Of a stretch of DNA of 42,790 nucleotides, positions 16,958-38,650 are shown in pieces. This stretch comes from a virus. The first letter of the stretch is position 1; each line of letters starts with the position of its first letter. Both the position numbers and the translations under genes were made by a program. Below the pieces are notes generated by a model. That model did no database searches, had not been told where the DNA came from, and worked only from the letters and a program-made list of their open reading frames with translations. Location of the stretch: IMG/VR virus record IMGVR_UViG_3300042988_000862, positions 1 through 42,790 of that record. The stretch is one strand, 5' to 3'.

Positions 16958-16972
16958 GATTACCGCCTTGAT

Positions 16973-17917
16973 TTATTGTATATCTAGTCCTAAAGTACTC
17001 CAATCATTTCCTTGCGTGTCTTGTTGTTCTGTCTGTTGTTCAAATTGTCCCATACCTCGTGTAACGTGTTTAGGGTTTAGCCCATATTCAGATGATAAAT
17101 CTTCGTACTCAGAATACCTTTCATTGTATCTCTTTCCTCGCTCAGCAGATATAACACGTGCAGCATCAATTATTGCTTGTCTATCATCATTAGTAACACC
17201 TGTTCCACCTTTAAGTATTTTATTGTAAGCACCAATAAACTTGTTTGCTAAAGGCAATCCCTGTTCCGTTCTTAGATATTCTGATTCCCTTACAACTGAC
17301 GTTGGGTCACCAATCTTGTTAAAAGTCGTAATAAGATATTGGTCAGAAGCATTAAGATTTTTTGTTTTCCCAGAAACAACATCTTTTAAAATTCCTTCCA
17401 TAGCACCAAGTTGTGTTTGTATATTTACATAATCTTTGACTTCTGGTAGTGATACAAACTCTTTTCTAAGACGAGATGTATTTAAAAACTCCTGTTGTTT
17501 TGTTTTTTGTGTTTCCTTGTTAGAAGTTTCATCAAGCAATGTTTGATTTTGATATGTCACATCTCCAATCTTAGCTTCTTTCGCAACAAATCCTTCAGGG
17601 ATTGCCTGTTGTACTTCAATACCTGCGAGTGAGTCCCGCCACTGTTGTTCACGTTCGGTAAGTGGGACACCTGATTCCATCTTTCTTCTCAAATTCATAA
17701 ATGTAAACTTCGCAGGGTCATATTTCGCTTCTAATTCAAGTTTACGCCCAAACGCATCTTCTTGTTCTTTCTGTAAAGCAAGTCGTTGCTGTGTTTCTTG
17801 TTTCTTTTGAATATTGTTTAGATATTGACTTCCAAGTGATTCAATAAGACCGCCTAAAAACTGTTCTTTACCTGCGCCCGGGTCTTCTTGCTGTTGTTGT
17901 AATACTGAATAAGCCAT
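16973..17917 (-). CDS. Internal virion / ejection protein candidate
   Basis: 314 residues, mostly helical and Gln/Glu-rich: coiled coil at 45-65, then a central domain (LRKEFVSLPEVKDY, YLITTFNKIGDPTSVVRESE, LANKFIGAYNKILKGG). That middle motif set recurs in phage structural proteins of unknown role. No signal peptide, unlike the tail proteins downstream in coordinate. It starts 15 nt after the previous gene in transcription order (17933-18610), with the ribosome site GAGGTGAC. Confidence 0.5.
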   Translation of the reverse strand: MAYSVLQQQQEDPGAGKEQFLGGLIESLGSQYLNNIQKKQETQQRLALQKEQEDAFGRKLELEAKYDPAKFTFMNLRRKMESGVPLTEREQQWRDSLAGIEVQQAIPEGFVAKEAKIGDVTYQNQTLLDETSNKETQKTKQQEFLNTSRLRKEFVSLPEVKDYVNIQTQLGAMEGILKDVVSGKTKNLNASDQYLITTFNKIGDPTSVVRESEYLRTEQGLPLANKFIGAYNKILKGGTGVTNDDRQAIIDAARVISAERGKRYNERYSEYEDLSSEYGLNPKHVTRGMGQFEQQTEQQDTQGNDWSTLGLDIQ

Positions 17918-17932
17918 TTTGTCACCTCGTAT

Positions 17933-18610
17933 TTATGATAAACCGAATTGGTCAAGATTGCTACCAAAACTTCCAAACCCACCTACATCACCAGAATTTA
18001 ACATACCGCTACCAGTTGTCACCGGATTAGTCGTAGTACCTGAATCAAACATAGAACCGCCCATCTTAGCCCCAACTGCACCACCGACACCCGGCATCAA
18101 CATATTACCTAATGCTGCTCCTGCTATAGTTCCTAACGTTTTTCCAAATCCAGCGGTTTTTGATTCTGGCTGATACATAGCGTCAGGTTTCATTCCTGCA
18201 AGACCGAACAACTGTGACATAAGGCTCTGTCTTGCATTTTCTGCCATTGTAGCTTTTTGTGTTCCAATATCAGTAGTAACAGATGCAAGCTGTGGAGCCA
18301 TCTCGCTTGCCATACGTCCTTGTAGTACACCAAGCGCAGGTGAATCAGTGACACCACGCTTTGATGCGCTTGATTGTAACATCTGTAATACACCCGGTTT
18401 ACCTAAGCCACCACCCATATATGTCTGTTCAATTTTCTTTTGCGCCCTTGATTCAATATCAGCCCAATCAGGATTTACAGCACCATAATCAGGCGACCCA
18501 GCAAACTGTTGAAGAAGATTTGATAGACTTGTCCTTGCATTTGTAGCTTCTGCATACTCAGGAGCCATAATCCATTGAGCATCTTGTTTTTTACCACTAA
18601 ACCAACCCAT
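17933..18610 (-). CDS. Gly-rich internal virion protein candidate
   Basis: 225 residues from ATG 18610 (MGWFSGKK), which follows GGAGGTAAATAAC; an in-frame ATG at 18625 lies in the upstream gene. The N-terminal 130 residues are helical; residues 140-190 are Gly/Ala/Met-rich and hydrophobic (GFGKTLGTIAGAALG, PGVGGAVGAKMGG), like membrane-inserting segments of ejection proteins. The tail is Gly/Ser-rich. Confidence 0.5.
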   Translation of the reverse strand: MGWFSGKKQDAQWIMAPEYAEATNARTSLSNLLQQFAGSPDYGAVNPDWADIESRAQKKIEQTYMGGGLGKPGVLQMLQSSASKRGVTDSPALGVLQGRMASEMAPQLASVTTDIGTQKATMAENARQSLMSQLFGLAGMKPDAMYQPESKTAGFGKTLGTIAGAALGNMLMPGVGGAVGAKMGGSMFDSGTTTNPVTTGSGMLNSGDVGGFGSFGSNLDQFGLS

Positions 18611-18611
18611 G

Positions 18612-18992
18612 TTATTTACCTCCATCAGTATGCGGAAGATTTTCGTTCCGTGCTTTTATACGCTCAATTGCTATTGCTCGTATCTCACCATTAATACGTT
18701 TTTCTTCATCAGCTATTTCACGAGCTTGTATTTCAGCTTTAGCGGATTCCTCAAGTTTTCTTGAATCGACCTTGATACGTCCATCTTTATACAAATAAAA
18801 ATCCTGTGAGTACGTCAGACCAAGGTCGCTAATATGTTTGTCTTTAAGTACGACCTTATCAGCATCTTTAGGCTGTACAGCATCATCAGCTTCACTCAGT
18901 GAGTAGATACGTCCACCACTTTTTTCATATAACATATACACATCAGCAAAAGCTACGTTCGCAACCAGCATCATTAGAATAAAATATCTCAT
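18612..18992 (-). CDS. Exported small protein
   Basis: 126 residues. The first 16 (MRYFILMMLVANVAFA) form a Sec signal peptide ending in AFA. The mature part has a beta segment then a long charged helix (KLEESAKAEIQAREIADEEKR), likely coiled coil. AAGGAG precedes the ATG. One of several exported proteins in the tail block. Function is not recognised. Confidence 0.6.
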   Translation of the reverse strand: MRYFILMMLVANVAFADVYMLYEKSGGRIYSLSEADDAVQPKDADKVVLKDKHISDLGLTYSQDFYLYKDGRIKVDSRKLEESAKAEIQAREIADEEKRINGEIRAIAIERIKARNENLPHTDGGK

Positions 18993-19001
18993 ATGTTCTC
19001 C

Positions 19002-19733
19002 TTAGTTTGTTTCAATTGTGTATACACTGGTCGCCCCCGTGACTTTCCAGTAGTACCCCGCTGGAACAACAACCATTGACCCAACATTGTTTGAGCCCGC
19101 AAGTGACAATACAGCCGTCGAAGGAGAGCTTGATCCATCAACAAAAAATGTCAGCACTGACCCATCTGAATTATTCGCAACAACAAACCGATCAGTTTCA
19201 GCTAAATAAGACACGTTGTTACTTTTGCTGGTGTATCCTTTAAACTCGCCTTTTATATTATCATTATCAAGTAATGTGATATCTCCACTAGAATTATTAT
19301 AAAAATAGCCGATTCTCCGATACTGCAATGAACCAGTCGGAAACGTTGAATTTGTTGATACCTTAACCGTAAATGTATCGGCAGAGCTAGACCCGACCGC
19401 GTACACATAATACGTCGTGCTTGTCGCCTCACTTCCCGTGTCTATATCAGACCATGTTACCGTTGTTGCTGATGAATTATACAGCATTTCACAATCGTCA
19501 GCAGCGGCGTTGCATACCATAACGCTTCCAGATGTGACCGTCAATGTCGATGCTGATGCGTATTGGATAACAACATCGTTCCCACGAAACTGACGCATAA
19601 TTGCGGAATTATTCGTTGGTATGTATGTGTCCAAATCTGACGGAGAACGTGTGCCTAATGGCTCTAATGGTTCAAAGGCATCCCCAAACGCTAAAACCGG
19701 TATCAAGAGAAACGCTAACAAAAACCTTTTCAT
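19002..19733 (-). CDS. Exported beta-rich tail/fibre-like protein
   Basis: 243 residues with signal peptide MKRFLLAFLLIPVLAFG. The mature protein is Thr/Ser/Val/Gly-rich with many short strands and ends in a hydrophobic beta segment (SMVVVPAGYYWKVTGATSVY) typical of the last repeat of phage tail-fibre or spike accessory proteins. A strong ribosome site (AAGGGGGG) is present. It sits next to the collar protein. Confidence 0.55.
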   Translation of the reverse strand: MKRFLLAFLLIPVLAFGDAFEPLEPLGTRSPSDLDTYIPTNNSAIMRQFRGNDVVIQYASASTLTVTSGSVMVCNAAADDCEMLYNSSATTVTWSDIDTGSEATSTTYYVYAVGSSSADTFTVKVSTNSTFPTGSLQYRRIGYFYNNSSGDITLLDNDNIKGEFKGYTSKSNNVSYLAETDRFVVANNSDGSVLTFFVDGSSSPSTAVLSLAGSNNVGSMVVVPAGYYWKVTGATSVYTIETN

Positions 19734-19744
19734 AGACCCCCCTT

Positions 19745-20458
19745 TTATTCCTTCATTATATACGCAAGTGCATAATATTTTGCAATGTTAACAGTACCTG
19801 TTCCTGTATTTGCTGTTGAACCGCTGACCGTTGCTGTGTGTCCATGCGATGAACCAGCAGCGGAACTACCACTAAATGAATGTGTATGTGCACTTCCAGC
19901 TCCTGAAGACTCAAACCCATAAACATTGGCAACTGTTGTTGCTTCACCTGCATGACCTGTTCCTGCCGCATCAGTAGCTACATCATGCGTGTGAGCCGAT
20001 TCATTTGCTATTGCATACGAACCTACACCGTGAGTATGACTTGATTCGTTCGCATTCGATACCGCAATAGTACCGTATGCGTGCAAGTGTTCAGGTATCG
20101 TGCCATTACCAGATACTGTCAATGAACCTGTAATGTTTGTCTTAGCTGCACCTGCATCATCTTGATTAGCACCAACAATAAACCTATCACGTAAATCAGG
20201 TGTTCCATTCCCACCATCACATAACAACCACCCTGCTGGTATCGTTGCTATTGTACCACTCCACATGACAATCACACCGCTTGGGATAGCATAATCAGAC
20301 AACACATACGACACATCTTTTTTCAATGAACGTAATTCTTCATTAAGAATGACATTCGAGTTTGTGCATTCAGTAACATACTGACCTGATTCACCTGACA
20401 AAGCAAACGCATAAGTGCTTATTAAACATAAAATTATTGACAAAATAAGTTTTTTCAT
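19745..20458 (-). CDS. Tail collar domain protein with signal peptide
   Basis: 237 residues. Signal peptide MKKLILSIILCLISTYAFA. Residues 60-95 match the phage tail collar domain (PSGVIVMWSGTIATIPAGW, then CDGGNGTPDLRDRFIVGA). The C-terminal half is His/Gly/Ser/Thr-rich (SSHTHGVG, HTHSFSG), typical of distal fibre tips where metal ions are held between chains. Collar-domain proteins normally fold in the cytoplasm; a Sec signal on one is unexpected. The start overlaps the previous gene in an ATGA. Confidence 0.75.
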   Translation of the reverse strand: MKKLILSIILCLISTYAFALSGESGQYVTECTNSNVILNEELRSLKKDVSYVLSDYAIPSGVIVMWSGTIATIPAGWLLCDGGNGTPDLRDRFIVGANQDDAGAAKTNITGSLTVSGNGTIPEHLHAYGTIAVSNANESSHTHGVGSYAIANESAHTHDVATDAAGTGHAGEATTVANVYGFESSGAGSAHTHSFSGSSAAGSSHGHTATVSGSTANTGTGTVNIAKYYALAYIMKE

Positions 20459-22824
20459 CTGTTTACGCTCTCAACATCTACATCATATACCGCTGATAAA
20501 CGCCTGACCTTAAAATCATACGCATCATTTTTCTCTATTTTTACCTTTACTGTTTCAGCACTAAAACTACCACCGCTAAAACCTTCACGATAATAACCAT
20601 CATGTTCATCAAGGTCAACGGTAAACGTATCTGTTTCCCCTGTTTCATTAGTAAACGTGATTGTCGCTGTTCCTTGTGTTCCTTCATATTCAAACGTGAT
20701 TAACTTTAATTCTTTTATATACCCCGGCATAAACAATGTATTTATACCGCTTTCCCATGCAAACGGTACTGTTGATTCTGACACAGAACCAAATTTAGAA
20801 TAAAGCAATTTAACAACATATCCATTTTCTTTATATACAGTTGGAGTATACGCAATAGAATCACTTGTTGCTGATATACGGTATTGAACAATCGTGTTTG
20901 CTGTTACACCAGAAACAAGACTTCCTGCTGAATTAGTAAACTCGCTTGACCATGTAGCAGCAAGACAATCTGATGTTGACGCACCTGAACGTAAAGCAAT
21001 AGTTATATCGCTTCCGTCAGTTGGTAGACTTTCGTTCCAATATATTGTATCAAATGCACCTGCATTTAATTCTAGATATTGGCTTGTATATGTCCCTGTT
21101 TTATCAGGACGGTCTATATTTGCTTCTGGTAAATATGTAACTATATCATTTATAGTTGAAATACTTGCGTTTTTAGTTTGCAATTCAGTTAACCAACCGT
21201 CAACCGTACAATCCCATGATATCTCAAGTTCAGGACTGTCAGCGTCACCACCAACACCTTCTGGGATATATCGCATATCGTCCCATGTTCCAGTAAAATC
21301 TGCGTGTTCTTTATGTATAAGCTGATATACGATTTCATCATATGTATATATTGTGCTACTACTTGACGACCCAGATATTAGTGATTCATCGTCAGTACCT
21401 GAAAGAAACACGCAAAATGCTGAAATATTTATTGTGTCTATAGAAAAAGATTGCGTCAACGTGTCATATATAAGGACTCTATCGTTATATGTTGCACCTG
21501 ATTCAGATGATGTATACGCAAGATAGTATGAGTTTCTGAATATTGAAGCACACACATCATCTCTATTTGATTGTGATATATCTTTTATCTCTGGTTCGAC
21601 TTTATCAGATATTATTGTTGAGTTTTGACCACCAAATACGTATATTCCGTTGTTACCTAAGTAGTATAGACCATCTGAACCGTTAGCTACTGAATACGGC
21701 GCACGACACCCGATAATAGAATACGGGTCAGACACTGACCAATCACTAAATGTATCAGCACCGTCAGTATACAGATATTGAATAGTGTTATCTTTACCAA
21801 CGACTAATCTACCGTATAATGTCTTGACAAACGTTATCTGGTCACCATCGTTCTTGCGTATATCAAAATAGAACAATGGGTCAAAGTATTCAGGAGTATC
21901 ATCTTCTGAATAATATAACCGTGATTGATATGTAGGATTGTTACCACCAAATATACGATTTTGATGAAGCTGTATAAATCTAAACTTCGGAACTGTAGCT
22001 GCTACTGTTGGACTTAAAGACGCACCTAACGCACCATCAGCATCACTATCTACCAACGTTGTAGTCGTATTATCTGCGATTGTGCCGTTTGTAAGTAATT
22101 TATATGTTGAGCCACTATTAGCTATGCGATATACCTTGCGTCCTATAACACTTTCACCTTCATATGTGTTAGGCGCAAATGGTATCATACTAAGATTTAT
22201 GTCATTATCTGTCACAGTCATAGGATATGACGCAATATCAAATGAAACTTCATAACTTGCCGTATAAAACGTTACCTTATACGTATAAGTACCATCCGGT
22301 CCAGCTCCACTTCCTGCGTCTGCTGTGTACACGCTACCTGCATACGCTACTTTTGTACCGTCAGTCTTTAGCATATTATTATAGCCATCACAACCATACG
22401 CAATATTATTATATGTTACCCATGTCCATCGCTTTTCAGATGTAGCAAATGAGAACTTCGATGAACATACACCTGTATCATCACTACATACTTCAACATC
22501 GTTTCCAAGAGTGCGAATAGTGTATTTATTTCCATCTGGTAAATACAACCTGTGTATGCTTGTTGACGCATCTGTATCTGTAGACGTATACGCAGTTATT
22601 ACAGGGCTACGTTTAACAAGAGCACCTGTTTCACTGTTAAGCCGTGCGTTTTGTACTACAGTCCCTTGATTTAATGATACACCACGTTCATTTGCCTTAC
22701 TGTTTAGACCACCTGAGAAATCAAATATGTTCAATTGACGGTCTTTGACTTCATCAGCCGTAGCACAGAACCCAGATACACAAAAATTAACGATACATAG
22801 AAGGGCGTAAAGAAATACCCGCAT
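20455..22824 (-). CDS. Beta-propeller tail protein (nozzle/stabilisation-like) with signal peptide
   Basis: 789 residues from ATG 22824 (MRVFLYALLCIVNFCV..., cleavage near CATA); ATG 22839 is an alternative. After the signal comes LNIFDFSGGLNSKANERG...QGTVVQNARLN...LVKRSP, the hallmark opening of podovirus tail-tube/nozzle proteins built on a propeller. Propeller-like strands follow (FRFIQLHQNRIFGGN, GRLVVGKDNTIQYLY, APYSVANGSDGLYYLGNNGIYVF). The C-terminal 300 residues are beta-sandwich-like. It follows the head-tail adaptor gene directly, as in podoviruses. The signal peptide is odd for a protein that must join the head-tail channel. Confidence 0.68.
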   Translation of the reverse strand: MRVFLYALLCIVNFCVSGFCATADEVKDRQLNIFDFSGGLNSKANERGVSLNQGTVVQNARLNSETGALVKRSPVITAYTSTDTDASTSIHRLYLPDGNKYTIRTLGNDVEVCSDDTGVCSSKFSFATSEKRWTWVTYNNIAYGCDGYNNMLKTDGTKVAYAGSVYTADAGSGAGPDGTYTYKVTFYTASYEVSFDIASYPMTVTDNDINLSMIPFAPNTYEGESVIGRKVYRIANSGSTYKLLTNGTIADNTTTTLVDSDADGALGASLSPTVAATVPKFRFIQLHQNRIFGGNNPTYQSRLYYSEDDTPEYFDPLFYFDIRKNDGDQITFVKTLYGRLVVGKDNTIQYLYTDGADTFSDWSVSDPYSIIGCRAPYSVANGSDGLYYLGNNGIYVFGGQNSTIISDKVEPEIKDISQSNRDDVCASIFRNSYYLAYTSSESGATYNDRVLIYDTLTQSFSIDTINISAFCVFLSGTDDESLISGSSSSSTIYTYDEIVYQLIHKEHADFTGTWDDMRYIPEGVGGDADSPELEISWDCTVDGWLTELQTKNASISTINDIVTYLPEANIDRPDKTGTYTSQYLELNAGAFDTIYWNESLPTDGSDITIALRSGASTSDCLAATWSSEFTNSAGSLVSGVTANTIVQYRISATSDSIAYTPTVYKENGYVVKLLYSKFGSVSESTVPFAWESGINTLFMPGYIKELKLITFEYEGTQGTATITFTNETGETDTFTVDLDEHDGYYREGFSGGSFSAETVKVKIEKNDAYDFKVRRLSAVYDVDVESVNR

Positions 22825-23461
22825 TTCTGACACCACCATTTAAAGAATATGCCTGTTTTATATACCTTTCAAACTCACTGTATGCGTAATTGACTTCTTG
22901 GTCTTTACCAAGTTTGATTTTTGCTTTCCACTGCAAATATGCTACTAACGCATAATGAAATGGTTCTAAATATCCAATCCCATTAAATGGTTCTAGCGAG
23001 TCACTAGAAAAATCGTTTGGTTTATACACAGTTGATACTACTATCTCGACATCATCAGCACTTGGTTCTTTATCAAGAAAAAGATATGTCCCTCTCTGAT
23101 ACCATTTACGAGGTGTACCATTTGAAACATGATTACGCCATGTCCTACTGTCGTTGCTTAACTCTACAGGTGATGCAGCTTTTAAGTATTCACCGTCATA
23201 CCATATACCACCAGAACGGTCATCAATTTTGTAAAAATTAGGTATCAATGTCGCAAGGTCATATTCTCTTTGGTTATCGACTGTCAATAACGTTTCTTCA
23301 CCAACAATACATTCTGCTCGTGTGCAAAACTCTATATTCGCTTGCGTAAGCCATGAATTTAGTATTGCGTCAGCTTCAGAAGATGTGTTTGCATCTAGCC
23401 GTTTATCTGTTACATCAGGATTTTCTTGTCTAAATCGTGTTCGTATCTCTAATCTTGTCAT
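22787..23461 (-). CDS. Head-tail adaptor (tail tubular A-like)
   Basis: 224 residues, no signal peptide. The pattern MTRLEIRTRFRQENPD, ILNSWLTQANIEFCTRAEC, REYDLATLIPNFYKI, GTPRKWYQRGTYLFLDKEP, and a helical end (YALVAYLQWKAKIKLG) follows phage adaptor proteins that bind the portal and start the tail. It lies just before the nozzle-like gene and overlaps its start by 38 nt. A strong GGAGG precedes the ATG. Confidence 0.68.
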   Translation of the reverse strand: MTRLEIRTRFRQENPDVTDKRLDANTSSEADAILNSWLTQANIEFCTRAECIVGEETLLTVDNQREYDLATLIPNFYKIDDRSGGIWYDGEYLKAASPVELSNDSRTWRNHVSNGTPRKWYQRGTYLFLDKEPSADDVEIVVSTVYKPNDFSSDSLEPFNGIGYLEPFHYALVAYLQWKAKIKLGKDQEVNYAYSEFERYIKQAYSLNGGVRNAGISLRPSMYR

Positions 23462-23470
23462 CTTTTCCTC

Positions 23471-23647
23471 CTATTTAGTTTCATCGTACCCGACATCATA
23501 CAACTTTTCCATATATTGTTCAATCTCAGGACTATCATATAACCTTGGATGCGATTGTAATATCATAAATTTATCGCCAACTGGTTCGATTCTAATGACA
23601 CTGTCATCACGCTTAAAACAGATTCCCTGTGAACGCTTCTGTAGCAT
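23471..23647 (-). CDS. Small hypothetical protein
   Basis: 58 residues starting MLQKRSQGICFKRDDSVIR and ending YDVGYDETK. A good ribosome site (AAGGCGG) lies 6-7 nt before the ATG, and the gene overlaps its neighbour by 35 nt. It reads as two strands and a helix (SPEIEQYMEKLYDVG). No family recognised. Confidence 0.55.
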   Translation of the reverse strand: MLQKRSQGICFKRDDSVIRIEPVGDKFMILQSHPRLYDSPEIEQYMEKLYDVGYDETK

Positions 23648-23972
23648 CTGTTACCGCCTTTTTGATTACACCTGATTCAGCAAACGCCGATTTAGTGAAC
23701 ATATCTATAAGGCTAGGACACGCACGTCCCATCAATCCACCTATAAATGACGATACAGAAGCGATAATGCACAATGTGACCGCATACCCTTTCATGTTCT
23801 TTTCAACAGTTTTAAACCCATCTTCTAGGCTTGTACGCAATGATATAAGACCGTTTTCAAGTGTAACAATACGTCCTTCACGTTTAGGAAGTTCTGAAAG
23901 ATGTTCATCCCACTGCCTACCACGCATTGATGCCTCAGCCAGTTCTTTCTCTTTAGCGCAGTGTTCACACAT
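23613..23972 (-). CDS. Coiled-coil membrane protein (XhlA/holin-like layout)
   Basis: 119 residues: a CEHC motif at the N-terminus, a helical region (about 20-60) with heptads, one transmembrane segment (YAVTLCIIASVSSFIGGLM), and a tail of about 35 residues. Coiled coil plus one membrane segment resembles XhlA-type haemolysin/holin accessory proteins, but the tail is longer than usual. It sits amid tail genes, away from the peptidase. Confidence 0.45.
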   Translation of the reverse strand: MCEHCAKEKELAEASMRGRQWDEHLSELPKREGRIVTLENGLISLRTSLEDGFKTVEKNMKGYAVTLCIIASVSSFIGGLMGRACPSLIDMFTKSAFAESGVIKKAVTDATEAFTGNLF

Positions 23973-24111
23973 CTTTCTTCATCCTTTCCAATTTCCGTTT
24001 TGTCACGCCTTTTATACGAATGCCTTTCACAGCAGGAGCACCACAATACTCGCACGAATGACTCACGCTTCTTGCCCTGCCACATTCTGGACAGGTGGAG
24101 AACTTAGGCAT
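23965..24111 (-). CDS. 48-residue zinc ribbon
   Basis: MPKFSTCPECGRARSVSHSC then EYCG: two Cys pairs (C-x2-C, C-x2-C) in the first 23 residues, then a basic tail. It is coupled on both sides: the start is in TAATG with the upstream gene and the stop overlaps the next ATG. Confidence 0.6.
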   Translation of the reverse strand: MPKFSTCPECGRARSVSHSCEYCGAPAVKGIRIKGVTKRKLERMKKDV

Positions 24112-24425
24112 TATTCATCAGCCTCAGAAGCGTTTGTTACATTAAGAGCCTTCATCGTGTCACGTAATCCACGATAGTACACAAGTTTAGAATTGATAAA
24201 CGTAATGGTATCTTGATGCCTAGTCTTCGCAGTTTTTAATGCGTCGATTTTATTCCTGATATCTATAGGCGAAAATTCTTTCTGGACTACTGGGTTATCA
24301 GACACTACCAATTTAGTTTCATCAGCCGATTTTGTGTAGCTCTCAGCAAACACCGAGTACACAAGCACACAAACAAACGCTATGAACAGAGCAAACACTG
24401 CGACAACGTTCTTTTTCTTCTTCAT
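24111..24425 (-). CDS. Exported or membrane-anchored helical protein
   Basis: 104 residues. A basic start and hydrophobic stretch ending in YSVFA form a signal peptide or anchor. The mature part is helical and charged (IRNKIDALKTAKTRHQDTITF). This layout also fits an inner-membrane spanin (Rz-like). No outer-membrane partner lies next to it, although a lipoprotein gene exists at 8174. AAGGAG precedes the ATG. Confidence 0.5.
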   Translation of the reverse strand: MKKKKNVVAVFALFIAFVCVLVYSVFAESYTKSADETKLVVSDNPVVQKEFSPIDIRNKIDALKTAKTRHQDTITFINSKLVYYRGLRDTMKALNVTNASEADE

Positions 24426-24439
24426 ATCGGACTCCTTTT

Positions 24440-27400
24440 TTATACGTCACCGGCTTCGATGCCGATGTGTTTAGTGTTATAGTAAAATGTTCCACTGTGC
24501 ACGGTAATATCATCGACCTCAGACGTGTCCGTTTCAATGTTGCATGAAGCGCATAAAACGTCACCGACTGCTACCACGTTAGAGGCTTCATCCCAATTTA
24601 TCGGAAACAAACCGGTAAATTGTTTGTACTGAGCCGCCGCACCGACCACTATTGCGCCCTCAACCGTCTGAGTCCGTGTTGCGACATCACCAGCTTTTTT
24701 GTAATACAGAACACACTTAATATCGACCGTATCACCTGCACCGCCACCGGTGTTATCTACGTTTGTGCTGAACTTGAACTCGCCATTTAAATCAGACGCA
24801 CCATCCCAATCAGCATGGACATCGAGGTCACTGAAAACAAGGACTTCACTTGCCGCATCAATATCCCAACCGCATAACTGGTTTGCGTCAGCCGCTTTCC
24901 ATGTTGCGCCAGATGCGCCAGGATTAGCTGAAATCATATTGGCGTGGTAGTACCTGCGGTACAGCGTTGTGTCAGCTCGTATTTCGTCACTGATATTGAT
25001 AAGGTCGTTATCCTCATCAAACGTGATGCTCTGGTCAGTTGTTTCACCATTGACCGATATAGCGTAATCCACACCAGCCGCACCAGACCCGATATTGACG
25101 TTGCCGTTGACATCGAGTTTCTGTGTTGGGGAGGTAGCCCCCACCCCGACATTACCGCTTACTATTATGTTGCCCGTCACCTGTAATGCCTGAGTAGGTG
25201 CTGTCTGTGCTGTCGTTCCGATTCCGACATTGCCGGCAAATAACGTCTGCATGTTGAAATAGTTTTTAAGTGCCATTGACTCGAAGCTGGCGATCTTGCT
25301 ACTTATCGCAACAACTGCACTACTGCCTGTCGTTGTCACCGTGCGTATTGCGTCAGTGTCTGTCGATGTAGTAAAATACGCACCAGTATTGTCCTGATAC
25401 CCTGCTGACGTGACATACTCAGCGACTGGCGCAGTGAAGTTTGCTGTATACCGAGCGACACCTTTATCAATTTTAAACTCGTCGATGTACCCGTCAAATT
25501 CGTTAGCGTCATTATATGCGCCATTGCGCCCTATCGCCCACACTTGGGTTGAGTCTTTCATAGACGATGTAGATACTCCAACCGTACCGTCCGCAGTTCC
25601 ATCGACATATAAAGTTATTGTCGTTCCGTTGCGTACATAGGCGATGTGATGCCAGTTAGTGTCAAGCGTCCCCGCCATCGTCAGTGAATACGGTGTCCCT
25701 GCTGAGTCAAAATATATCGCTGTTATTTTTCCAGCGTTGACATATGCGTACGTTGAAGCGCTTGCATTTGTTGCCGCATTATCGACCTGTCCCCACATAC
25801 GGTCTATCGTTGAAGCAGACGTAAGTTTTATCTGCGCTTCAATGGTAAAGTTACCTGCTCCCATTGTGAAATCCGCACTGTCTGCCGCTTCAAGGTAGTC
25901 ATCTGTACCATCAAGTTTTAATGATGCAGTCCCCCATTTCTTCACCGCTGTAGCCAACTGTGCGTTACCGTTAGCTGTCCATGCTGTACCACCAGATACC
26001 GCATTTGTCATAGTAGTACTTGCGTCAACACCGTTAAATTGTAGCAACGTTTTGACGTACGAATCAAGAGCAGTTCCAGCTCCCGCATCAGTGAAATCTA
26101 CATTCGCCCCTATTTTTGTGACTCCGATCGAATTGACTATGATGTCACCACTGGTCGTTGTGGTAAGCGATAAGTCGCCAGATGCTCTTGTGATTGTCTG
26201 CATCGCCGCCGTTCCGTTCACATCCAACTTCTGCGCTGGGGAGGTTGTCCCGATGCCAATATTTCCGACAAGGTTCATCATCCCATCGCCAGCTTGTATT
26301 GTGGCTATAGTCTGGTTGTGGAAGAACTCGATGTAATCAGTGGCATTAGTCGCATCAGAAGAATATATCCGTAATGTCGGATCAACCGTTGCGGCTAATG
26401 GCGACCGGTCGACATCAGCAAAATCAGCAAACTCAATAATACTAATATACCCAGTGTCATTTGTTGCATCATTGCATACAAGTCCTAATTGTAGGTTATC
26501 ATTTCCAGTTGTTGAAAACATAAATCCTGAATCGTTTGATGAGCCGAATTGATGTTTAACGTTATCTGACAAATATGCGGTAACGCTGAAGTTTGTGGTA
26601 CTTAAAAAATTAGTTACACCATCCGAAGCAGCAACATTGTCTATAGATAATATCCCCGTTGGTAGTATCGCTAATTCTGACCCAGAGGCATTTCCAGGTG
26701 CGCCGTATACATCCCAGAGATTTGTGTTTGTCCTTGGCAGAACGCAGAAGACGGACATTGTGTTTGACGGTGCAATCGAAGAGCTGAATCTAAACCAATA
26801 TCGGCTTGTTGCATCATAGCCACCAGCAGGCACTCCTCCGTCACCAGAAGCACTCATAGCCCAATCAGCTGGTGCTGTAAATGTTATTGCGCCACGAACT
26901 GTATAATTAGTTGTCCCGTCTGTACACGATGCCGTGTAATCCGTCCACGTTGAGCCGTTCCAATATTCAGCTTTCATCGTTGCGCCAATAGCATATGTAC
27001 TGCCATAAATTAAAACTGAGGTGAAAGGCGTAACTGAGCCTACATATGTTGCCCTTGATGTTCCACTGCTTGAAGCAAAGCCTGAGAAGGTTGTACCTCT
27101 TGAGCTTGACGCCTCTGTGGTGTTGTTAGTGTTCCAAGCTGTCGTCCAGTACCATACGGCGGAAAACATATCGGTTGGGATTGCAGTTATTCTTGTGTCC
27201 CCTGTTATGGTCGTTGTGCCTGATACATCAAGTTTTGCAGTTGGCTCTGTCGTTCCAATACCGACGTTGCCGCTTGATGTCGCTAATGTAACACCGCCAG
27301 TGGTCGTTGCGCCTCTGGTCACTACTGATTGTAACGTATCGGATTCATTTACCGTTGCTGTAATCGTTGAACCAGATGCACCCCATGTCAGTGATGTACT

Positions 27401-27712
27401 GTTGGTGAAGTCGGGGTCTGTTATTTCGGCTGTATTAACATATACCGAACCGCCACCACCTGCACCGACCTCTGTATACGCTCCACCATTTTTTGACACT
27501 TTTAGCTTATTATCAGTGTCATTATATATAAGTCGTGCTTTATTTGTTGGTGATACGTTTGGGTCAGTAGCGAAACCGTCTAGTTCGACTATCTCGACAT
27601 CATCTATACAGCGTCCGTTCTCATATACTTCACATTCTGCAAAGACATATGAACACACAAACACTAGTATGATAAAACTACTTAACGTCCTTCGTAAGTC
27701 TGTTATATTCAT
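24440..27712 (-). CDS. Large exported tail fibre with LamG-like domain
   Basis: 1090 residues. The N-terminus (MNITDLRRTLSSFIILVFV, ending YVFA) is a signal peptide. Four copies of a 'G[IV]G[TA]T.P...LDV.G' motif punctuate the chain (for example VGIGTTEPTAKLDVSG), as in many tail fibres and host-recognition proteins. Around residues 600-770 lies a concanavalin/LamG-like sandwich (AGNFTIEAQIKL, NWHHIAYVRNGTTITLYVDG, DGYIDEFKIDKGVARYT), a likely glycan-binding fold. The C-terminus is beta-rich. It probably binds the host surface. It overlaps the coiled-coil gene by 35 nt and has AAGGAA upstream. Confidence 0.68.
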   Translation of the reverse strand: MNITDLRRTLSSFIILVFVCSYVFAECEVYENGRCIDDVEIVELDGFATDPNVSPTNKARLIYNDTDNKLKVSKNGGAYTEVGAGGGGSVYVNTAEITDPDFTNSTSLTWGASGSTITATVNESDTLQSVVTRGATTTGGVTLATSSGNVGIGTTEPTAKLDVSGTTTITGDTRITAIPTDMFSAVWYWTTAWNTNNTTEASSSRGTTFSGFASSSGTSRATYVGSVTPFTSVLIYGSTYAIGATMKAEYWNGSTWTDYTASCTDGTTNYTVRGAITFTAPADWAMSASGDGGVPAGGYDATSRYWFRFSSSIAPSNTMSVFCVLPRTNTNLWDVYGAPGNASGSELAILPTGILSIDNVAASDGVTNFLSTTNFSVTAYLSDNVKHQFGSSNDSGFMFSTTGNDNLQLGLVCNDATNDTGYISIIEFADFADVDRSPLAATVDPTLRIYSSDATNATDYIEFFHNQTIATIQAGDGMMNLVGNIGIGTTSPAQKLDVNGTAAMQTITRASGDLSLTTTTSGDIIVNSIGVTKIGANVDFTDAGAGTALDSYVKTLLQFNGVDASTTMTNAVSGGTAWTANGNAQLATAVKKWGTASLKLDGTDDYLEAADSADFTMGAGNFTIEAQIKLTSASTIDRMWGQVDNAATNASASTYAYVNAGKITAIYFDSAGTPYSLTMAGTLDTNWHHIAYVRNGTTITLYVDGTADGTVGVSTSSMKDSTQVWAIGRNGAYNDANEFDGYIDEFKIDKGVARYTANFTAPVAEYVTSAGYQDNTGAYFTTSTDTDAIRTVTTTGSSAVVAISSKIASFESMALKNYFNMQTLFAGNVGIGTTAQTAPTQALQVTGNIIVSGNVGVGATSPTQKLDVNGNVNIGSGAAGVDYAISVNGETTDQSITFDEDNDLINISDEIRADTTLYRRYYHANMISANPGASGATWKAADANQLCGWDIDAASEVLVFSDLDVHADWDGASDLNGEFKFSTNVDNTGGGAGDTVDIKCVLYYKKAGDVATRTQTVEGAIVVGAAAQYKQFTGLFPINWDEASNVVAVGDVLCASCNIETDTSEVDDITVHSGTFYYNTKHIGIEAGDV

Positions 27713-28541
27713 CTTCTATTCCTTTTTGACGTGAAAATTCTTTAAGTTTTAACTCTCTGATAGTCAGACTTTTTTCTTCAAGTTCTAAAGACTTTTTCAT
27801 GTTCTCAAACGATGCTTTAACACTATTAGCTTCTTTTTCTCGCACTTCAACATCAACTAAAGCAGAATCAAGTTTCACTCTTAATGCAGAACATTTAACT
27901 TGATTTTCATTAAGTGACTTTTGTTCGTCAACACACTTCTTTAATTTTGCATCAAGCTCGGCTTGTTTTTCTTTAATTGCAAACATAATCATATTTTTAG
28001 CGTTTTGTTTTATTCCATCAGCTTCGTTCTTTATAGCAATAGACTTTTCAAGCTGGTCTTTAGCGTATACAGTGCTTTTTTCAATAGACTCTTGCTTGTC
28101 TTTTAATATGACTGAAAGCCTGTTCATATCATCAGACAATTGCTTTACGACTGATTCACGTTTAGATACTTTTTCTTCACGTTCTTTTACTGAACGCAAT
28201 CTATCAGAAATGTCTTTTGAGTCTGACATAATCTTCTCTGTCATTTCTTCAAGTTTTTTGCTTTCTGAAGCAATAATATCTTTAATATTAGCACATCCTT
28301 TCTCTATGTCTTTTCGCTCAACCCTGATTTTGCTAACTGCTTGAGTTTCAGTATTGACCGCTTGCTTAATATCTTTATGTTTGGCAGACAATACCTCATA
28401 ATTACTTTTCATCGCTTCAATGGCATCTGTCAATGTCTTTAACTCACGTTCTTTATCTTTTATCTTAACTTCACATGATTTTATGCGTCCATCAAGTTCT
28501 TTAAATTTCTCAATCGACTTTTCATACTCTTTAATGTCCAT
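27678..28541 (-). CDS. Long coiled-coil protein
   Basis: 287 residues from ATG 28541 after GTGAGG. Nearly the whole length is charged heptads (Lys/Glu with Leu/Ile/Val), so it is a rod about 40 nm long if fully extended as a coiled coil. No signal peptide. It lies directly before the big fibre gene, so a shaft, trimerisation or assembly-chaperone role is plausible (inference). Confidence 0.55.
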   Translation of the reverse strand: MDIKEYEKSIEKFKELDGRIKSCEVKIKDKERELKTLTDAIEAMKSNYEVLSAKHKDIKQAVNTETQAVSKIRVERKDIEKGCANIKDIIASESKKLEEMTEKIMSDSKDISDRLRSVKEREEKVSKRESVVKQLSDDMNRLSVILKDKQESIEKSTVYAKDQLEKSIAIKNEADGIKQNAKNMIMFAIKEKQAELDAKLKKCVDEQKSLNENQVKCSALRVKLDSALVDVEVREKEANSVKASFENMKKSLELEEKSLTIRELKLKEFSRQKGIEDEYNRLTKDVK

Positions 28542-28542
28542 G

Positions 28543-28896
28543 TTATGCCTCACTTGCTTTGATTTCTACGTATACCGTTCCTGTTGTATTCGCATTTGTA
28601 CATTGTACTCTTAACTGGTCACCATTCGACAAGTACAAATCACCATCTGGTTCAAATCTAACGCTGTCTGATGCGCTAAAATCTAGTTTCCTGATAACAC
28701 GGTCATATGTAGAACCATGCTTTGAATCAATAGACAATGTCACTTGTTCTGTTATGTTTACGCTTGCTTTTACATACACAGCTTCAAGTTTTACTGGGTG
28801 TCTATACGCTGTAGTATAATCAAGCGCACCTGATGTAAGGTTCTGTGATGTTGTCTTATCGAGATTAGGAAACCTAAACACTCTTAAAGTGCTCAT
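28543..28896 (-). CDS. Small beta-rich structural protein
   Basis: 117 residues, beta-rich (VKLEAVYVKASVNITEQVTL, GDQLRVQCTNANTTGTVYVEI). It has the form of a small jelly-roll or fibre-associated domain. No signal peptide. It overlaps the upstream exported protein by 4 nt. Function is not recognised. Confidence 0.5.
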   Translation of the reverse strand: MSTLRVFRFPNLDKTTSQNLTSGALDYTTAYRHPVKLEAVYVKASVNITEQVTLSIDSKHGSTYDRVIRKLDFSASDSVRFEPDGDLYLSNGDQLRVQCTNANTTGTVYVEIKASEA

Positions 28897-29324
28897 TGAG
28901 TTACCACCTTCATACTTAACGCTGTAGTTGAATCATTAGTAGCACCACCGACAACATGAAACCGTCCGTATGGCATTATCTCTTTATCAACATCTTCAAC
29001 GTGTGCATTTTCGTCTGTAACGGCAGTTAGCGTATCAGTTGTTGCCCACAATGAATCTACAGCACCCTCAGTTGTTGGTTTTGTGTATGATTGTTCAAAG
29101 TATATCGTCACTGCTACTGTACCGTCAGAAGATGCTTTATAAAACGCTGAAACATATTCTGCGTTAGCCATAGGAAAACTTTTAGTATATACAGAAGCTG
29201 CGCTTGCTACAGCAATCGTATTTGACCCAACTGATGTCTGGATAGGAACAACACCCATACTTGCTGCAATCGCTACACTACACACTAAACCCATACATAC
29301 CGCTACTAGACATTTACGTACCAT
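28893..29324 (-). CDS. Exported beta-rich protein
   Basis: 143 residues with signal peptide MVRKCLVAVCMGLVCSVAIA. The mature part is beta-rich (SVYTKSFPMANAEYVSAFYK, GTVAVTIYFEQSY), a pattern seen in small phage surface or fibre proteins. AGGAGG precedes the ATG, and the gene overlaps the O-antigen ligase-like gene by 11 nt, so they are co-expressed. Confidence 0.55.
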   Translation of the reverse strand: MVRKCLVAVCMGLVCSVAIAASMGVVPIQTSVGSNTIAVASAASVYTKSFPMANAEYVSAFYKASSDGTVAVTIYFEQSYTKPTTEGAVDSLWATTDTLTAVTDENAHVEDVDKEIMPYGRFHVVGGATNDSTTALSMKVVTQ

Positions 29325-30498
29325 GTTGACCTCCTGATTCTGCTAAGCCAATAAAAAACAGTGTATAAAATATATGTGCCCCAAGATGCCACGAGTACAC
29401 CCCGAATGCACCGACCATTGACGCTATTAGACTTGAATATACAAACGCTGAATATTCAGTAAACCTGTGTTTTCTAAATAATGACACAAACGCCATTACT
29501 AACAACAAAAACCCTATAATACCTATCTCATATAACAACTCAAAATATTCTCCATCAGCATGAAGCATCTTTGCGATATTTTCACCTTTATATTTATTGT
29601 GGTACATAACAGGAAATGAACCTATACCGTTGCCTGTCATCGGATATGCTTTTTTTATACCTTCAAGTGGTGATGTATTTAAATCTTTGACTATATTAGT
29701 CCATGTACTAAATCTTGCGCCATCACCAACAAAATACCTTACTTTATCATACTTGAAGTACGCAAATACCGACAATACAGCTATTATAACGCCTGTCAAT
29801 ACGCACCAAACAAGCCGTTTTTTCGACGTTAGGGCATAATAAGCTAGCACACAGCACACTAATGCACAAATACTCATCTGCGACACTGTAAGACATATTG
29901 AGAAAGCTATTAAAGCAAGATGTACATACTTTCTACGATATATCGCTGAAGGTATCGCCATCGCTAAAAATGTACCGACAAACAAAGGATGCCCAAGCGT
30001 TCCACCACAAGCACCATTTGGTACGCTACCATAAAACGGTACTACTTTAAAGAACTGGTCATACCCTAAGAACTGTATTATTATGTATGCGCTTATAACT
30101 GAGGCTGTGAATATTATGACATCAAGCAATGGTCTTACGCATCCATCTTTTCGTAAAAAAGCTATATCTCCATACTTCTGTCCTATGACCGAAACTAAAA
30201 ACATAACAGATGTAAACACGCACAATGCGCTAATCCATAACCATGGTGTATAAAACGGTATTCCGTACAATACAATTGTCAACTTCGGAGCACAAAAGAT
30301 ATTTATTGCTAGATACGCTAACAATATCAATAACCATTTATTTCGTATTTTCCCTAGAGTTCCTGAGTAACACGCTGTTAGGAATAGAGCTATTGAGAAC
30401 ACCACAGCAAGTATCAACTTCAGCGTTTGAGCGTCTGCCGTAGCGACAAAAAACAATGGTATTATCGCAAGCCCTATTCCTAACAACGTTTTATACAT
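29314..30498 (-). CDS. O-antigen ligase / Wzy-like membrane protein
   Basis: 394 residues with about 10-11 membrane helices. A large periplasmic-type loop near residues 265-335 (GDGARFSTWTNIVKDL, MTGNGIGSFPVMYH, MLHADGEYFELLYEIGIIG) matches the Wzy_C/O-antigen ligase pattern (PF04932), as does GTLGHPLFVGTFLAMAIP earlier. The family joins or polymerises lipid-linked sugar chains onto lipid A core, or, as PglL-type enzymes, onto exported proteins. It lies between two genes for Sec-exported proteins inside the tail cluster. It could change the host surface during infection or glycosylate the exported tail proteins (inference). Confidence 0.72.
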   Translation of the reverse strand: MYKTLLGIGLAIIPLFFVATADAQTLKLILAVVFSIALFLTACYSGTLGKIRNKWLLILLAYLAINIFCAPKLTIVLYGIPFYTPWLWISALCVFTSVMFLVSVIGQKYGDIAFLRKDGCVRPLLDVIIFTASVISAYIIIQFLGYDQFFKVVPFYGSVPNGACGGTLGHPLFVGTFLAMAIPSAIYRRKYVHLALIAFSICLTVSQMSICALVCCVLAYYALTSKKRLVWCVLTGVIIAVLSVFAYFKYDKVRYFVGDGARFSTWTNIVKDLNTSPLEGIKKAYPMTGNGIGSFPVMYHNKYKGENIAKMLHADGEYFELLYEIGIIGFLLLVMAFVSLFRKHRFTEYSAFVYSSLIASMVGAFGVYSWHLGAHIFYTLFFIGLAESGGQHGT

Positions 30499-31043
30499 TA
30501 CGTTGCGCCCCCGTCAGTCCATGTGCCTTTCATATTGACAACATACCATTTGTGATTCGTTCCATCACCGATAAGTGTTACGCTGTCACCTGTAGCACCG
30601 GGACTATCAATCGTATCTCCTGCGTCAAGTGCAAGATACTCGATAGTATCTGTAGTTACGCCTGTGTCGATAGTGATAGTACAACCTGTGCCGTCAACAA
30701 ACTGATATTGTAGTCCTGTCGCTGCTGTAGGCAAAGTCTTAGTCGAAGTCGTAGTAACAACATTTACACGTCCACTTTCAATAGCGGTAAGCGTGTCAGT
30801 CGTTACACCTACTTCGATATCAGTCCTCATGCCACTGATCTCGCCAGTACCATCACCAACGATATTTCCAGTAGCTGTTATGTCATCAACTGTCATGTCA
30901 CCAGTAGCGATAATAGCACCGTTTACCGTGAAATCGTCATTAGTCGTGTCGATGACGAGAAAACCATCGTACATCTCTGACGTTCCTGCGAAACACGGAA
31001 ACGCTATCATCACGGCAACCAGCGTGATAAGCAATTTCTTCAT
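30498..31043 (-). CDS. Exported fibre-like protein
   Basis: 181 residues with signal peptide MKKLLITLVAVMIAFPCFA. The mature protein is rich in Thr, Gly, Asp and Val in repeated strand patterns (TVNGAIIATGDMTVDDITATG), the style of beta-helical fibre or 'GDMTVD'-type tail proteins. AAAAGGAG precedes the ATG. It follows the major capsid gene and is coupled to the O-antigen ligase-like gene (1-nt overlap). Confidence 0.58.
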   Translation of the reverse strand: MKKLLITLVAVMIAFPCFAGTSEMYDGFLVIDTTNDDFTVNGAIIATGDMTVDDITATGNIVGDGTGEISGMRTDIEVGVTTDTLTAIESGRVNVVTTTSTKTLPTAATGLQYQFVDGTGCTITIDTGVTTDTIEYLALDAGDTIDSPGATGDSVTLIGDGTNHKWYVVNMKGTWTDGGAT

Positions 31044-31073: not shown

Positions 31074-32024
31074 TTATAAACCTGTTGACCCGAATAATTC
31101 ACGGAAATTCGTTTCGCCAACTGATGCTCTCATACTACCCTTGTGCTTAACCAAATCTTCGTTATCTTCAACCCATGAACGGAAATTTGGTTTCTTGCGC
31201 CAGTAAAAACGGAACATATTCATGTTAGGTATACGAATATACCAAGCAGTGTCAGAACCGCCGAACTGTGCAGCAAGATACCGCAACTCGACTGGGTCAT
31301 AATCAAGCGACAACAACGAACTGAACTTTTTCTTTTCAGAACCAAACTTGTTCGCATCGTTGTCAGGAGTACCCGGTACTGCTCGTGAAGCAAGTATACG
31401 ATATGCAACATCACGTAAAGCAGGCGGTAGAATCAACTGACGGACGCCACTTTCGATAATCGGCATACCATCTTCACCAACAAGGTTGTTAGCAATCTGC
31501 GTTTCAGCAAGAATAAGGTTGTCAATTGACAACGCACCTGACAACAAATTGCTAAGTGTAGCAGTTGTTTCAGCGTTCTGTAGATGCGATGCGCTAAACA
31601 GATACACACCATCAGGAGTTGTGTTTGTAGCAAATCCGTTGTACAGACGTGCAGCAACAAGTTTATTGCATTTAGCAATAGCGCCTTTTGCCATAGCTTT
31701 CGCTGATACAAGACCTTCAACAACAGCTGCTTCATCATCTTCAATAGCTTCAACCGACAACGTTGCAGTCTTATCGTACTTGATATGAGTAAACGTCTTA
31801 TCATATCCTTGTACTAAACGACCTTCGTTGCCTGCGTTGCCTTCAGTTGTTGCTTCCCATTCTCCAAGACCTGATACCTCAGACACTTGTACCATAGAAG
31901 AATCATCTTCCATGATATTGACAACTTTCTCAAACTCTTTTGGAGTCGTTTCATACGACCTATTAGCTACTTCATCGTAGGTGCGTGTGTACGCATCTGC
32001 GATACTCGATTTTAATATAGCCAT
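31074..32024 (-). CDS. Major capsid protein (Mu gpT / HK97-fold-like)
   Basis: 316 residues, no signal peptide. The pattern EWEATTEGN, YDKTFTHIKYDKTATLSVEAIEDD, then LPPALRDVAYRILASRAVPGTPDNDAN and WYIRIPNMNMFRFYWRKKP matches the order of motifs in Mu-like major head proteins (an HK97 fold). About 400 copies would form the shell. Position after scaffold and decoration genes supports it. AGAGAGG precedes the ATG. Confidence 0.8.
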   Translation of the reverse strand: MAILKSSIADAYTRTYDEVANRSYETTPKEFEKVVNIMEDDSSMVQVSEVSGLGEWEATTEGNAGNEGRLVQGYDKTFTHIKYDKTATLSVEAIEDDEAAVVEGLVSAKAMAKGAIAKCNKLVAARLYNGFATNTTPDGVYLFSASHLQNAETTATLSNLLSGALSIDNLILAETQIANNLVGEDGMPIIESGVRQLILPPALRDVAYRILASRAVPGTPDNDANKFGSEKKKFSSLLSLDYDPVELRYLAAQFGGSDTAWYIRIPNMNMFRFYWRKKPNFRSWVEDNEDLVKHKGSMRASVGETNFRELFGSTGL

Positions 32025-32052
32025 TATACACCTCTCTTAATTCTTGTTTATA

Positions 32053-32520
32053 TTACAGTGACACAAAACGACCGATTGCGAACCCATACGTGTTAGCTGC
32101 GACAGCATCCGCTGAAGCATCTATCTCGTCAATATGGAATCCGTACCCACTAGAAATAGTCGTGTCTGTCAAGTCAACGCCTTTACCAGTTGAATCAATG
32201 TCGACAACCGTACCACGTGCAGCGGTAGTAATCAGCACTGAACTTTTTACTGGCGCACGAAACTGGATATTGTCGTTTAATGGAGTCACTGGAATATTAG
32301 CACCACCGTTTGCTGCGGTAGCTTCGGTAACAGCAGCAGCAGCGACACCAACAACTGCGTTTGTAAGAGAAGATGCGGTATCTGCGAACCCTGAAGTCAA
32401 ATAAACTACTTCACCACGTGCGATGACCTGTGAAGCAGCCATAGGATACTCTTGTACTCTCTGGCGACCATCACGATACACCTCAAAACCATTGAGGTAC
32501 TGTTTGCTATTTACAGCCAT
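32053..32520 (-). CDS. Head decoration / stabilisation protein
   Basis: 155 residues, small and beta-rich (RGEVVYLTSGFADTA, AVVGVAAAAVTEATAANGG, GYGFHIDEIDA). Small proteins of this size and composition just upstream of the capsid gene usually bind the outside of the capsid. No family motif named with certainty. AAAAGGAG precedes the ATG. Confidence 0.6.
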   Translation of the reverse strand: MAVNSKQYLNGFEVYRDGRQRVQEYPMAASQVIARGEVVYLTSGFADTASSLTNAVVGVAAAAVTEATAANGGANIPVTPLNDNIQFRAPVKSSVLITTAARGTVVDIDSTGKGVDLTDTTISSGYGFHIDEIDASADAVAANTYGFAIGRFVSL

Positions 32521-32540
32521 GATATGCTCCTTTTAAATTT

Positions 32541-32705
32541 CTAAAGCTCAAATCTAGGCTGAGGAGTATCTCGATAGTCTTTTTCTCCGTGTGTCCATTC
32601 ACAGACAGGACAGTCAGGACGTTCATCATCTATGAGATAATCGACGATTTCGCCACATCTCCCACAGATATATTCACGTTCCTTATTTTCCTGTACTGTT
32701 CCCAT
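32541..32705 (-). CDS. 54-residue rubredoxin-like zinc ribbon
   Basis: CGRCG at 14-18 and CPVC at 32-35 form a C-x2-C ... C-x2-C metal site, as in rubredoxin-like ribbons. AAAGGTG precedes the ATG. It lies between scaffold and decoration genes, 9 nt after the scaffold stop. Confidence 0.65.
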   Translation of the reverse strand: MGTVQENKEREYICGRCGEIVDYLIDDERPDCPVCEWTHGEKDYRDTPQPRFEL

Positions 32706-32714
32706 GACACACCT

Positions 32715-33836: not shown

Positions 33837-33849
33837 CGTTCTCCTTTAC

Positions 33850-33871
33850 CATGCGTTTTAAAGACCGCATG
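33850..33871 (-). promoter_or_regulatory. Hairpin in the scaffold 5' leader
   Basis: CATGCG / CGCATG arms with a 10-nt loop, ending about 9 nt before AAAGGAG and the scaffold ATG. It could tune scaffold expression relative to its neighbours or protect a processed 5' end. Confidence 0.4.
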
Positions 33872-33905
33872 AAACTTTTATTAAACTTACGAAACCAAAG
33901 ATTTA

Positions 33906-34241
33906 TTATGCCTCTTTGCGAGCATCAGCAGGTGACTTGCGTGGTCTACCTCTGCCTAATCGTACTACTTCGCCATTACCTTCATCAGCTGGGTCTTTCT
34001 CTGACGCAATAACTTCTTGGTCTATATCAACATTTGTTGACGTTGATTTGTTGCCCAGTATTGACTCAACATCAAAATCTTCTGTTTCTTTAATCCTATT
34101 ACGTTCACGAGCAATCAACGCATTAGTCACTTTAATCGCTTGTTCACGTGGTAAATGTTTCAACTCAGGACACGGTGGCAATACAAATCGTGCTACTGGT
34201 TTCTCTCGTTCCGCTGCGCTTCTGTAAACATTATCTCCCAT
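33906..34241 (-). CDS. AT-hook-like hypothetical protein
   Basis: 111 residues. LGRGRPRKSP near the C-terminus is a classical AT-hook core (GRP flanked by basic residues), suggesting minor-groove DNA binding. The centre is acidic and flexible. The start overlaps the stop of the 71-residue gene by 1 nt. Position between portal and scaffold suggests a virion or packaging accessory. Confidence 0.55.
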   Translation of the reverse strand: MGDNVYRSAAEREKPVARFVLPPCPELKHLPREQAIKVTNALIARERNRIKETEDFDVESILGNKSTSTNVDIDQEVIASEKDPADEGNGEVVRLGRGRPRKSPADARKEA

Positions 34242-36497: not shown

Positions 36498-36560
36498 ATG
36501 CCCTGCTTTTTATCTCACAAGGCGTATGCTTATTGCAGTGACGCACAGCTATACAACAAC

Positions 36561-36589: not shown

Positions 36590-36594
36590 TACAT

Positions 36595-38640: not shown

Positions 38641-38650
38641 CGATACCTCG

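Follow-up and report, generated by a model that had tools for sequence, protein, structure and literature searches.

Predicted Sec signal peptides on the external tail genes of a clade of tailed phages

Gene layout and signal peptides of the window

The whole IMG/VR virus record IMGVR_UViG_3300042988_000862 (42,790 bases; the whole stretch analysed here, referred to as the window) codes for TerS, TerL, a cell-wall hydrolase, portal, scaffold, decoration and capsid proteins, which are followed by a tail module on the minus strand. N-terminal signal peptides (SPs) of the Sec type were found on the genes of the external tail proteins, whereas the head genes carried none. The genes were called with a home-made gene caller and the signals were detected with a home-made scorer of the n-, h- and c-region structure. 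On textbook signals from E. coli the scorer missed PhoA; among 39 genes of E. coli K-12 it recovered the known exported proteins and also three membrane proteins, so that it cannot by itself separate signals from first transmembrane helices.

The first gene past the capsid gene, SP1 (30498..31043, like all the genes of this paragraph on the minus strand), begins with the signal MKKLLITLVAVMIAFPCFA, followed by a cleavage site and a beta-rich spike/fibre domain (SP score 7.0). A conserved neighbour encodes a Wzy_C/O-antigen-ligase-like multi-span membrane protein (29314..30498; Pfam Wzy_C, 1.5e-13), and the small protein SP2 (28893..29324; phrog_28213) has the signal MVRKCLVAVCMGLVCSVAIA and then a cleavage site (score 7.9). 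No SP was present on the conserved protein of 117 amino acids (aa) at 28543..28896, which belongs to a family without SP, or on the coiled-coil protein (27678..28541). The fibre of 1090 aa with a LamG/ConA-like domain (24440..27712; Laminin_G_3, 1.4e-18) starts with MNITDLRRTLSSFIILVFVCSYVFA and a cleavage site (score 7.5). A 104-aa protein with a signal or transmembrane N-terminus (24111..24425; score 8.0) is encoded within or near the presumed lysis cluster; it gave no family match above the cut-off and may be a membrane or lysis protein rather than a tail part. The SU10-type adaptor (22787..23461; Pfam SU10_adaptor, 1e-14) has no SP. The putative beta-propeller tail nozzle (20455..22824) has the signal MRVFLYALLCIVNFCVSGFCATA and then a cleavage site (score 7.5), and its start is better placed at 22824 (ATG with GGTGG upstream) than at 22839. 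The same arrangement of signal and cleavage site was found on the collar-domain tail fibre (19745..20458; MKKLILSIILCLISTYAFA; score 8.5; phrog_5795/1800, tail and collar fibre), the Mtd-like receptor-binding protein (19002..19733; MKRFLLAFLLIPVLAFG, with the site after LA or FG; score 7.4; Pfam mtd_2nd, 2.1e-7) and a 126-aa protein (18612..18992; MRYFILMMLVANVAFA; score 7.7), whose counterparts by position have an SP in the relatives G001, G002, G018 and G019. The presumed internal/ejection proteins (13825..18610) and the head module with capsid, decoration, zinc-ribbon, scaffold, portal, endolysin, TerL and TerS (31074..39175) are without SPs.

An earlier note on this DNA had described signals ending in A-x-A on nine genes, and this was borne out. 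The scorer marked the genes at 18612, 19002, 19745, 20455, 24111, 24440, 28893, 30498 and 39458, together with 29314 and one weak non-structural open reading frame. The nine N-termini lie in open frames and are classical signal peptides with scores of 7.0–8.5, which is the range of OmpA, MalE and DsbA. They have a positive n-region, a hydrophobic core of 8–16 residues and small residues at −3/−1 at the true protein start, and an A-x-A-like motif ends the signals of the eight genes at 18612–31043 and that of 39458. A good Shine-Dalgarno sequence precedes most of the nine starts, 19745 having only a weak one. The N-terminus of 29314 was taken as a first transmembrane helix and not counted as an SP because the gene encodes the multi-span Wzy_C protein. 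When the window's own N-termini were shuffled, about 0.9 such genes were expected versus the 11 observed (29314 and the weak non-structural frame included). No signal was scored on the terminase, portal, scaffold, decoration, capsid, adaptor (22787), coiled-coil (27678), 117-aa (28543) and internal (13825–18610) proteins. The contrast between tail and head genes drawn in the earlier note also holds and can be refined, as the adaptor, which neighbours the portal, is signal-free; the boundary runs between adaptor and nozzle. Chance and miscalled starts were ruled out by the shuffles, the Shine-Dalgarno sequences and the homologues, and the presence of signals on the external tail genes is firmly established.

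The nozzle and the spike-like SP1

The AlphaFold model of the 20455 product had a mean predicted local distance difference test (pLDDT) score of 73, and its first 25 Foldseek matches were podovirus tail or nozzle chains (T7 gp12, SU10, P22 gp10 and Pa223), with low template modelling scores of 0.25–0.5. The modelled beta-propeller fold and the place after the SU10_adaptor gene support the assignment of this protein as a podovirus-type tail nozzle. It is like the known podovirus nozzles in these two respects and in PHROG Hc3 similarity, and differs from them in that a Sec signal is present on every nozzle of the clade described below, whereas signal-less relatives start at the core. Further nozzles were gathered with a nozzle profile, those of G001, G018 and G019 being added, and all 16 distinct clade nozzles had a signal, although that of L133 was recognized by eye in its open frame and that of the L136 group is weak. 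The identity among the signal segments (0.29) equalled the shuffled level (0.29), while the remainder of the protein reached 0.53. The outgroup nozzles L148 and L149 start at the conserved core (MEQIFSDFSGG), and those in MW202497 and MW202601 have no signals. The searches showed a single nozzle gene per phage. In 13 of the 16 nozzles (e.g. L131, L134, L146, L147, G018 and G019), the first residue of the predicted mature protein is Gln. We considered this as a sign of a Bacteroidota host (the 'Q-rule'); Gln at +1 is common in the nozzles yet occurs in only 4/51 proteins of the SP set overall, and the rule was therefore not used for the host.

The C-terminal half of SP1 was modelled by AlphaFold with a pLDDT of ~90. 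In the PDB it matched the phage Pa223 capsid spike best (E 2.8e-6) and the tailspike TSP4 next, and by its model SP1 is similar to a capsid spike. Seen from the head, the nozzle, the fibres, the collar protein and the Mtd-like protein come after the adaptor. The set with signals reads as external appendages and the signal-free set as head, neck and internal proteins.

Conservation across relatives

Direct searches with the nozzle, portal or adaptor returned only the same phage in another assembly. IMG/VR relatives were retrieved with the signal-free capsid protein, and a two-sequence capsid alignment reached 80 loci. Where the capsid identity was ~33–40% and the downstream sequence was readable, every relative carried signals in it; among more distant relatives they were almost always lacking. 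After deduplication of the loci, signal genes in the near clade made up 50/125 downstream of the major capsid protein gene versus 4/211 upstream, and 5/278 downstream and 0/261 upstream in the far set of outgroups. The Fisher p values for 50/125 (1.6e-20 against the upstream genes and 1.1e-23 against the outgroup downstream genes) describe a contrast and not independent events, since the genes and phages are akin. In the capsid tree, all 18 signal-bearing phages, including the window, formed one clade (support 100/99), in which the window (as its duplicate L016) was sister to the other members.

In the family clustering, signals were restricted to particular families. SP1 had a signal in 9/10 members by score and 10/10 by eye, the tenth, in which the signal is obvious by eye, having been missed by the scorer because of a Lys in the c-region. 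Signals were present on 14/14 SP1/SP2 proteins of the second subclade, and on 3/3 members of the SP2 family and 4/4 of the nozzle family. The capsid, scaffold, zinc-ribbon, adaptor and coiled-coil families had 0 signals, and the decoration family had one false positive in 19 members. The ~115-aa family had no SP in 18 members, the lone SP-bearing member of the cluster (L034_13914) being the SP2 protein of that phage. The layout is repeated in six long genomes (42–49 kb), namely the window, G001, G002, G003, G018 and G019; most of the extra fibre genes in the five relatives also bear signals, and the start of the G001 collar gene is ambiguous. An unbiased retrieval was made with the signal-free 117-aa/115-aa protein family as bait, and 9/10 new relatives had signals on the adjoining tail genes. 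The tail-signal pattern is not a quirk of one contig; its conservation over a monophyletic set of relatives is confirmed.

The sole exception among these ten relatives, G017 (= L161), encodes signal-free homologues of the fibre, the Mtd-like protein and the nozzle, and lacks SP1, SP2 and the Wzy gene. The Mtd-like homologues within the clade carry an SP. In G017 the fibre (MAEIYIDGKSF...) and the Mtd-like protein (MTATRAWNESLPAGT...) have their first residue at the point of predicted cleavage in the clade homologues. These homologues thus start at the mature N-terminus, which argues that the signal is a removable module ahead of a complete protein.

Several observations were made at the edges of this data set. 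At the place of SP1, Wzy and SP2 in the clade, G017 (L161, L181–L183) has radical-SAM/B12-like and other inserted genes, and one more insertion may interrupt its capsid gene with a foreign gene. Three far-set phages, IMG/VR records from isolate genomes (L065 16920, L082 16216 and L091 16609), each have one signal-like N-terminus on a tail-region protein of 587–1030 aa. In the distant relative L077/G011 (27521–38915), post-capsid, fibre and other tail genes begin with transmembrane-like segments without A-x-A, which perhaps reflects a different envelope type of its host. A search of a collection of cultured phages turned up no clade member and only one weak partial match to a clade capsid protein, and a prophage search of genome contigs for the host returned only distant Rhodobacterales prophages. 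The Chlorobiaceae phage CV-1-33 and EBPR podovirus 1, considered as relatives for their terminase similarity, were rejected because their gene orders differ, the comparison being by gene order only.

Type of the signals

Of the downstream proteins, 57 have one hydrophobic segment at the N-terminus and no further one, and 54 of these contain an A-x-A-like site; among the multi-span proteins the site was found in 2/8. An alternative in-frame start with a Shine-Dalgarno sequence near the cleavage site was present in 4/51 SP genes versus 26/197 non-SP genes. The kept cleavage motif and the scarcity of alternative starts favour cleavage and argue against dual products; dual starts giving cytosolic and exported forms were rejected, such starts being rarer than the background. 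None of the 51 SP proteins has the Cys at +1 that marks lipoprotein (signal peptidase II) signals. Inspection of the N-termini did not reveal the twin-arginine translocation motif S/T-R-R-x-F-L-K, the window fibre having RR and not the remaining motif. The earlier note had offered two readings, export with addition of the tail parts in the periplasm or at the cell surface, and uncleaved anchors acting in adsorption. The former is the best fit to the distribution of A-x-A sites, to the persistence of the signal as a property at chance sequence identity and to the G017 starts; the latter leaves the conserved A-x-A unexplained. Sec export of the appendage proteins is a well-supported inference from these sequence features; cleavage, virion membership and the timing of assembly are inferred as well.

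The Wzy_C gene

By its multi-span structure and its above cut-off Pfam match, the 29314 product appears to belong to the Wzy/WaaL/PglL ligase superfamily; NCBIfam gave no match above the cut-off. Such a protein is encoded between SP1 and SP2 in most relatives. The motifs R..W, G.G and H-N/S-D/E are present in one subclade and partly degenerate in the other, the motif histidine being lost in L037–L039. The L017 copy gave a weak PEP_O_lig match (TIGR03097) below the cut-off. The protein may modify the exported proteins or host surface glycans. An obligatory partnership with the signals was rejected, as three phages with SPs (L021, L030 and L159) have no Wzy gene at that place.

Discussion

Tailed phages are taken to complete their virions in the cytoplasm. 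The signals on the appendages and their absence from the head, neck and internal set point to assembly in two compartments. Terminase, capsid, scaffold, portal, adaptor and internal proteins would remain cytoplasmic and form DNA-filled heads. SP1, SP2, the side fibres, nozzle, collar fibre, Mtd-like protein and 126-aa protein would be translocated by Sec, cleaved by signal peptidase I and folded outside the inner membrane. When holin and endolysin break the inner membrane, the adaptor-closed heads would come into contact with the nozzle and fibres exported earlier, to be completed into infectious particles at or after lysis. A possible gain is that receptor-binding proteins and nozzle could not act on, or trigger, the heads before lysis; the appendages might also be modified outside the cytoplasm. 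We lean slightly towards this explanation, under which the external appendages pass through Sec, have their signals cleaved off and join cytoplasmic heads at lysis or later. The fuller proposition, a monophyletic tailed-phage lineage with cytoplasmic heads and adaptor on one side and Sec-exported nozzle, fibres, receptor-binding proteins and capsid spike on the other, completed only when lysis mixes them, is put forward more tentatively, as having somewhat less than an even chance. Several points weigh against late joining. The P22 and T7 nozzles assemble inside the cell and seal the head, and joining after lysis would leave heads closed by the adaptor only and would suffer from dilution. No exported assembly factor was identified. 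Neither the number of cysteines in the mature proteins nor its parity gave a sign of disulphides, and disulphide bonds as the reason for export were rejected for lack of cysteine enrichment and of an even-number bias.

Other explanations account for parts of these data. The hydrophobic N-termini might anchor the tail proteins in the inner membrane, with late or no cleavage, so that heads dock to tails assembling there. T4 head assembly is known to be membrane-associated and L077/G011 has transmembrane-like N-termini on the corresponding genes, but the canonical cleavage motif is retained in 54/57 proteins, Gln directly follows the predicted site in most nozzles and a translocated nozzle would point away from the cytoplasmic head, which makes such tethering unlikely. 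Export could alternatively let a phage Wzy/PglL-like ligase glycosylate the proteins outside the membrane, with assembly then proceeding in two compartments as above. Three findings are in line with this: most relatives encode in the SP1–SP2 interval a Wzy_C protein that conserves R..W and G.G and often also H-N/S-D/E, the L017 copy has its weak match, and Wzy and SPs are both absent from G017. We nevertheless think it rather unlikely, given the three signal-bearing phages with no Wzy gene in that interval, the missing histidine in L037–L039 and the simpler role that Wzy may have in altering the host O-antigen.

The exported copies might also be non-virion products serving superinfection exclusion, as decoys or in surface display, with the virion copies made from other starts. 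T4 Spackle (gp61.3), a periplasmic phage protein with a cleaved Sec signal, inhibits the gp5 lysozyme and acts against superinfection (PMC7650644), and the operon studied here holds the Wzy/O-antigen-ligase-like gene. Spackle is alike in being an exported phage protein and differs in being one inhibitor gene, whereas most of the tail module (nozzle and fibres) is concerned here. The signals do not fit a small exported inhibitor of the Spackle type separate from the virion module, as they sit on nozzle, fibres and spike. Alternative starts are fewer in SP than in non-SP genes and the sole nozzle copy of each phage would be diverted, and this explanation is likewise rather unlikely. It is hardly credible that the signals are inert remnants, or starts that are hydrophobic by chance, and direct no export: the property has persisted in one clade while the sequence turned over fully, and is absent from the outgroups.

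Compared with known systems, late joining of exported tail parts to cytoplasmic heads would be unusual. SignalP matches were reported on genes of Porphyromonas gingivalis phages, some with core functions; the capsid-protein signals were ascribed to a prohead protease, and others were on spanins or unknown genes (PMC10367356). These phages are similar in having predicted signals on phage genes, but no systematic tail set is described there. In filamentous phages (Inoviridae), virion proteins are inserted into the membrane by the secretion machinery of the host and then assembled (PMC4823517). They differ in having an extruded, non-lytic virion with no head or tail, whereas the window represents a tailed double-stranded DNA phage with portal and terminase. 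Part of virion morphogenesis takes place outside the cell in the Acidianus two-tailed virus, an unrelated archaeal spindle virus whose tails grow from the released particle with no exported parts being added. The full-text literature, with most subscription journals outside the reach of the search, yielded no tailed phage whose tail module bears signals, only single exported proteins and scattered SignalP matches. We know of no other tailed phage with tail parts made outside the inner membrane and joined late to the heads. If the explanation is right, a clade with an export signal on nearly every external appendage, the head-sealing nozzle included, would break the rule of cytoplasmic completion. 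How the particles stay closed before lysis would then become a question, and the clade would serve as a natural model of tails joined late or outside the cell.

Other features of the window

The ninth signal-bearing gene (39458–39799) lies outside the tail module and adjoins TerS and a GroES-like gene (39168–39464); its mature part gave no family match above the cut-off and is vaguely Sm-like by eye. An open reading frame of 50 aa at 8174–8326 (MGKLLIILCVLLCGCASNK) has a lipoprotein-type lipobox and possibly encodes a lysis (spanin) or surface lipoprotein. A small zinc-ribbon/rubredoxin-like gene (32541–32705; CxxC...CxxC) in the scaffold–decoration interval is conserved in 17 relatives. The early genes at 4460–5383, 6441–7106 and 8907–10361 contain long in-frame short-period repeats (NASSGDYS, SVNGSNGVNW and ATDDATRAAT).

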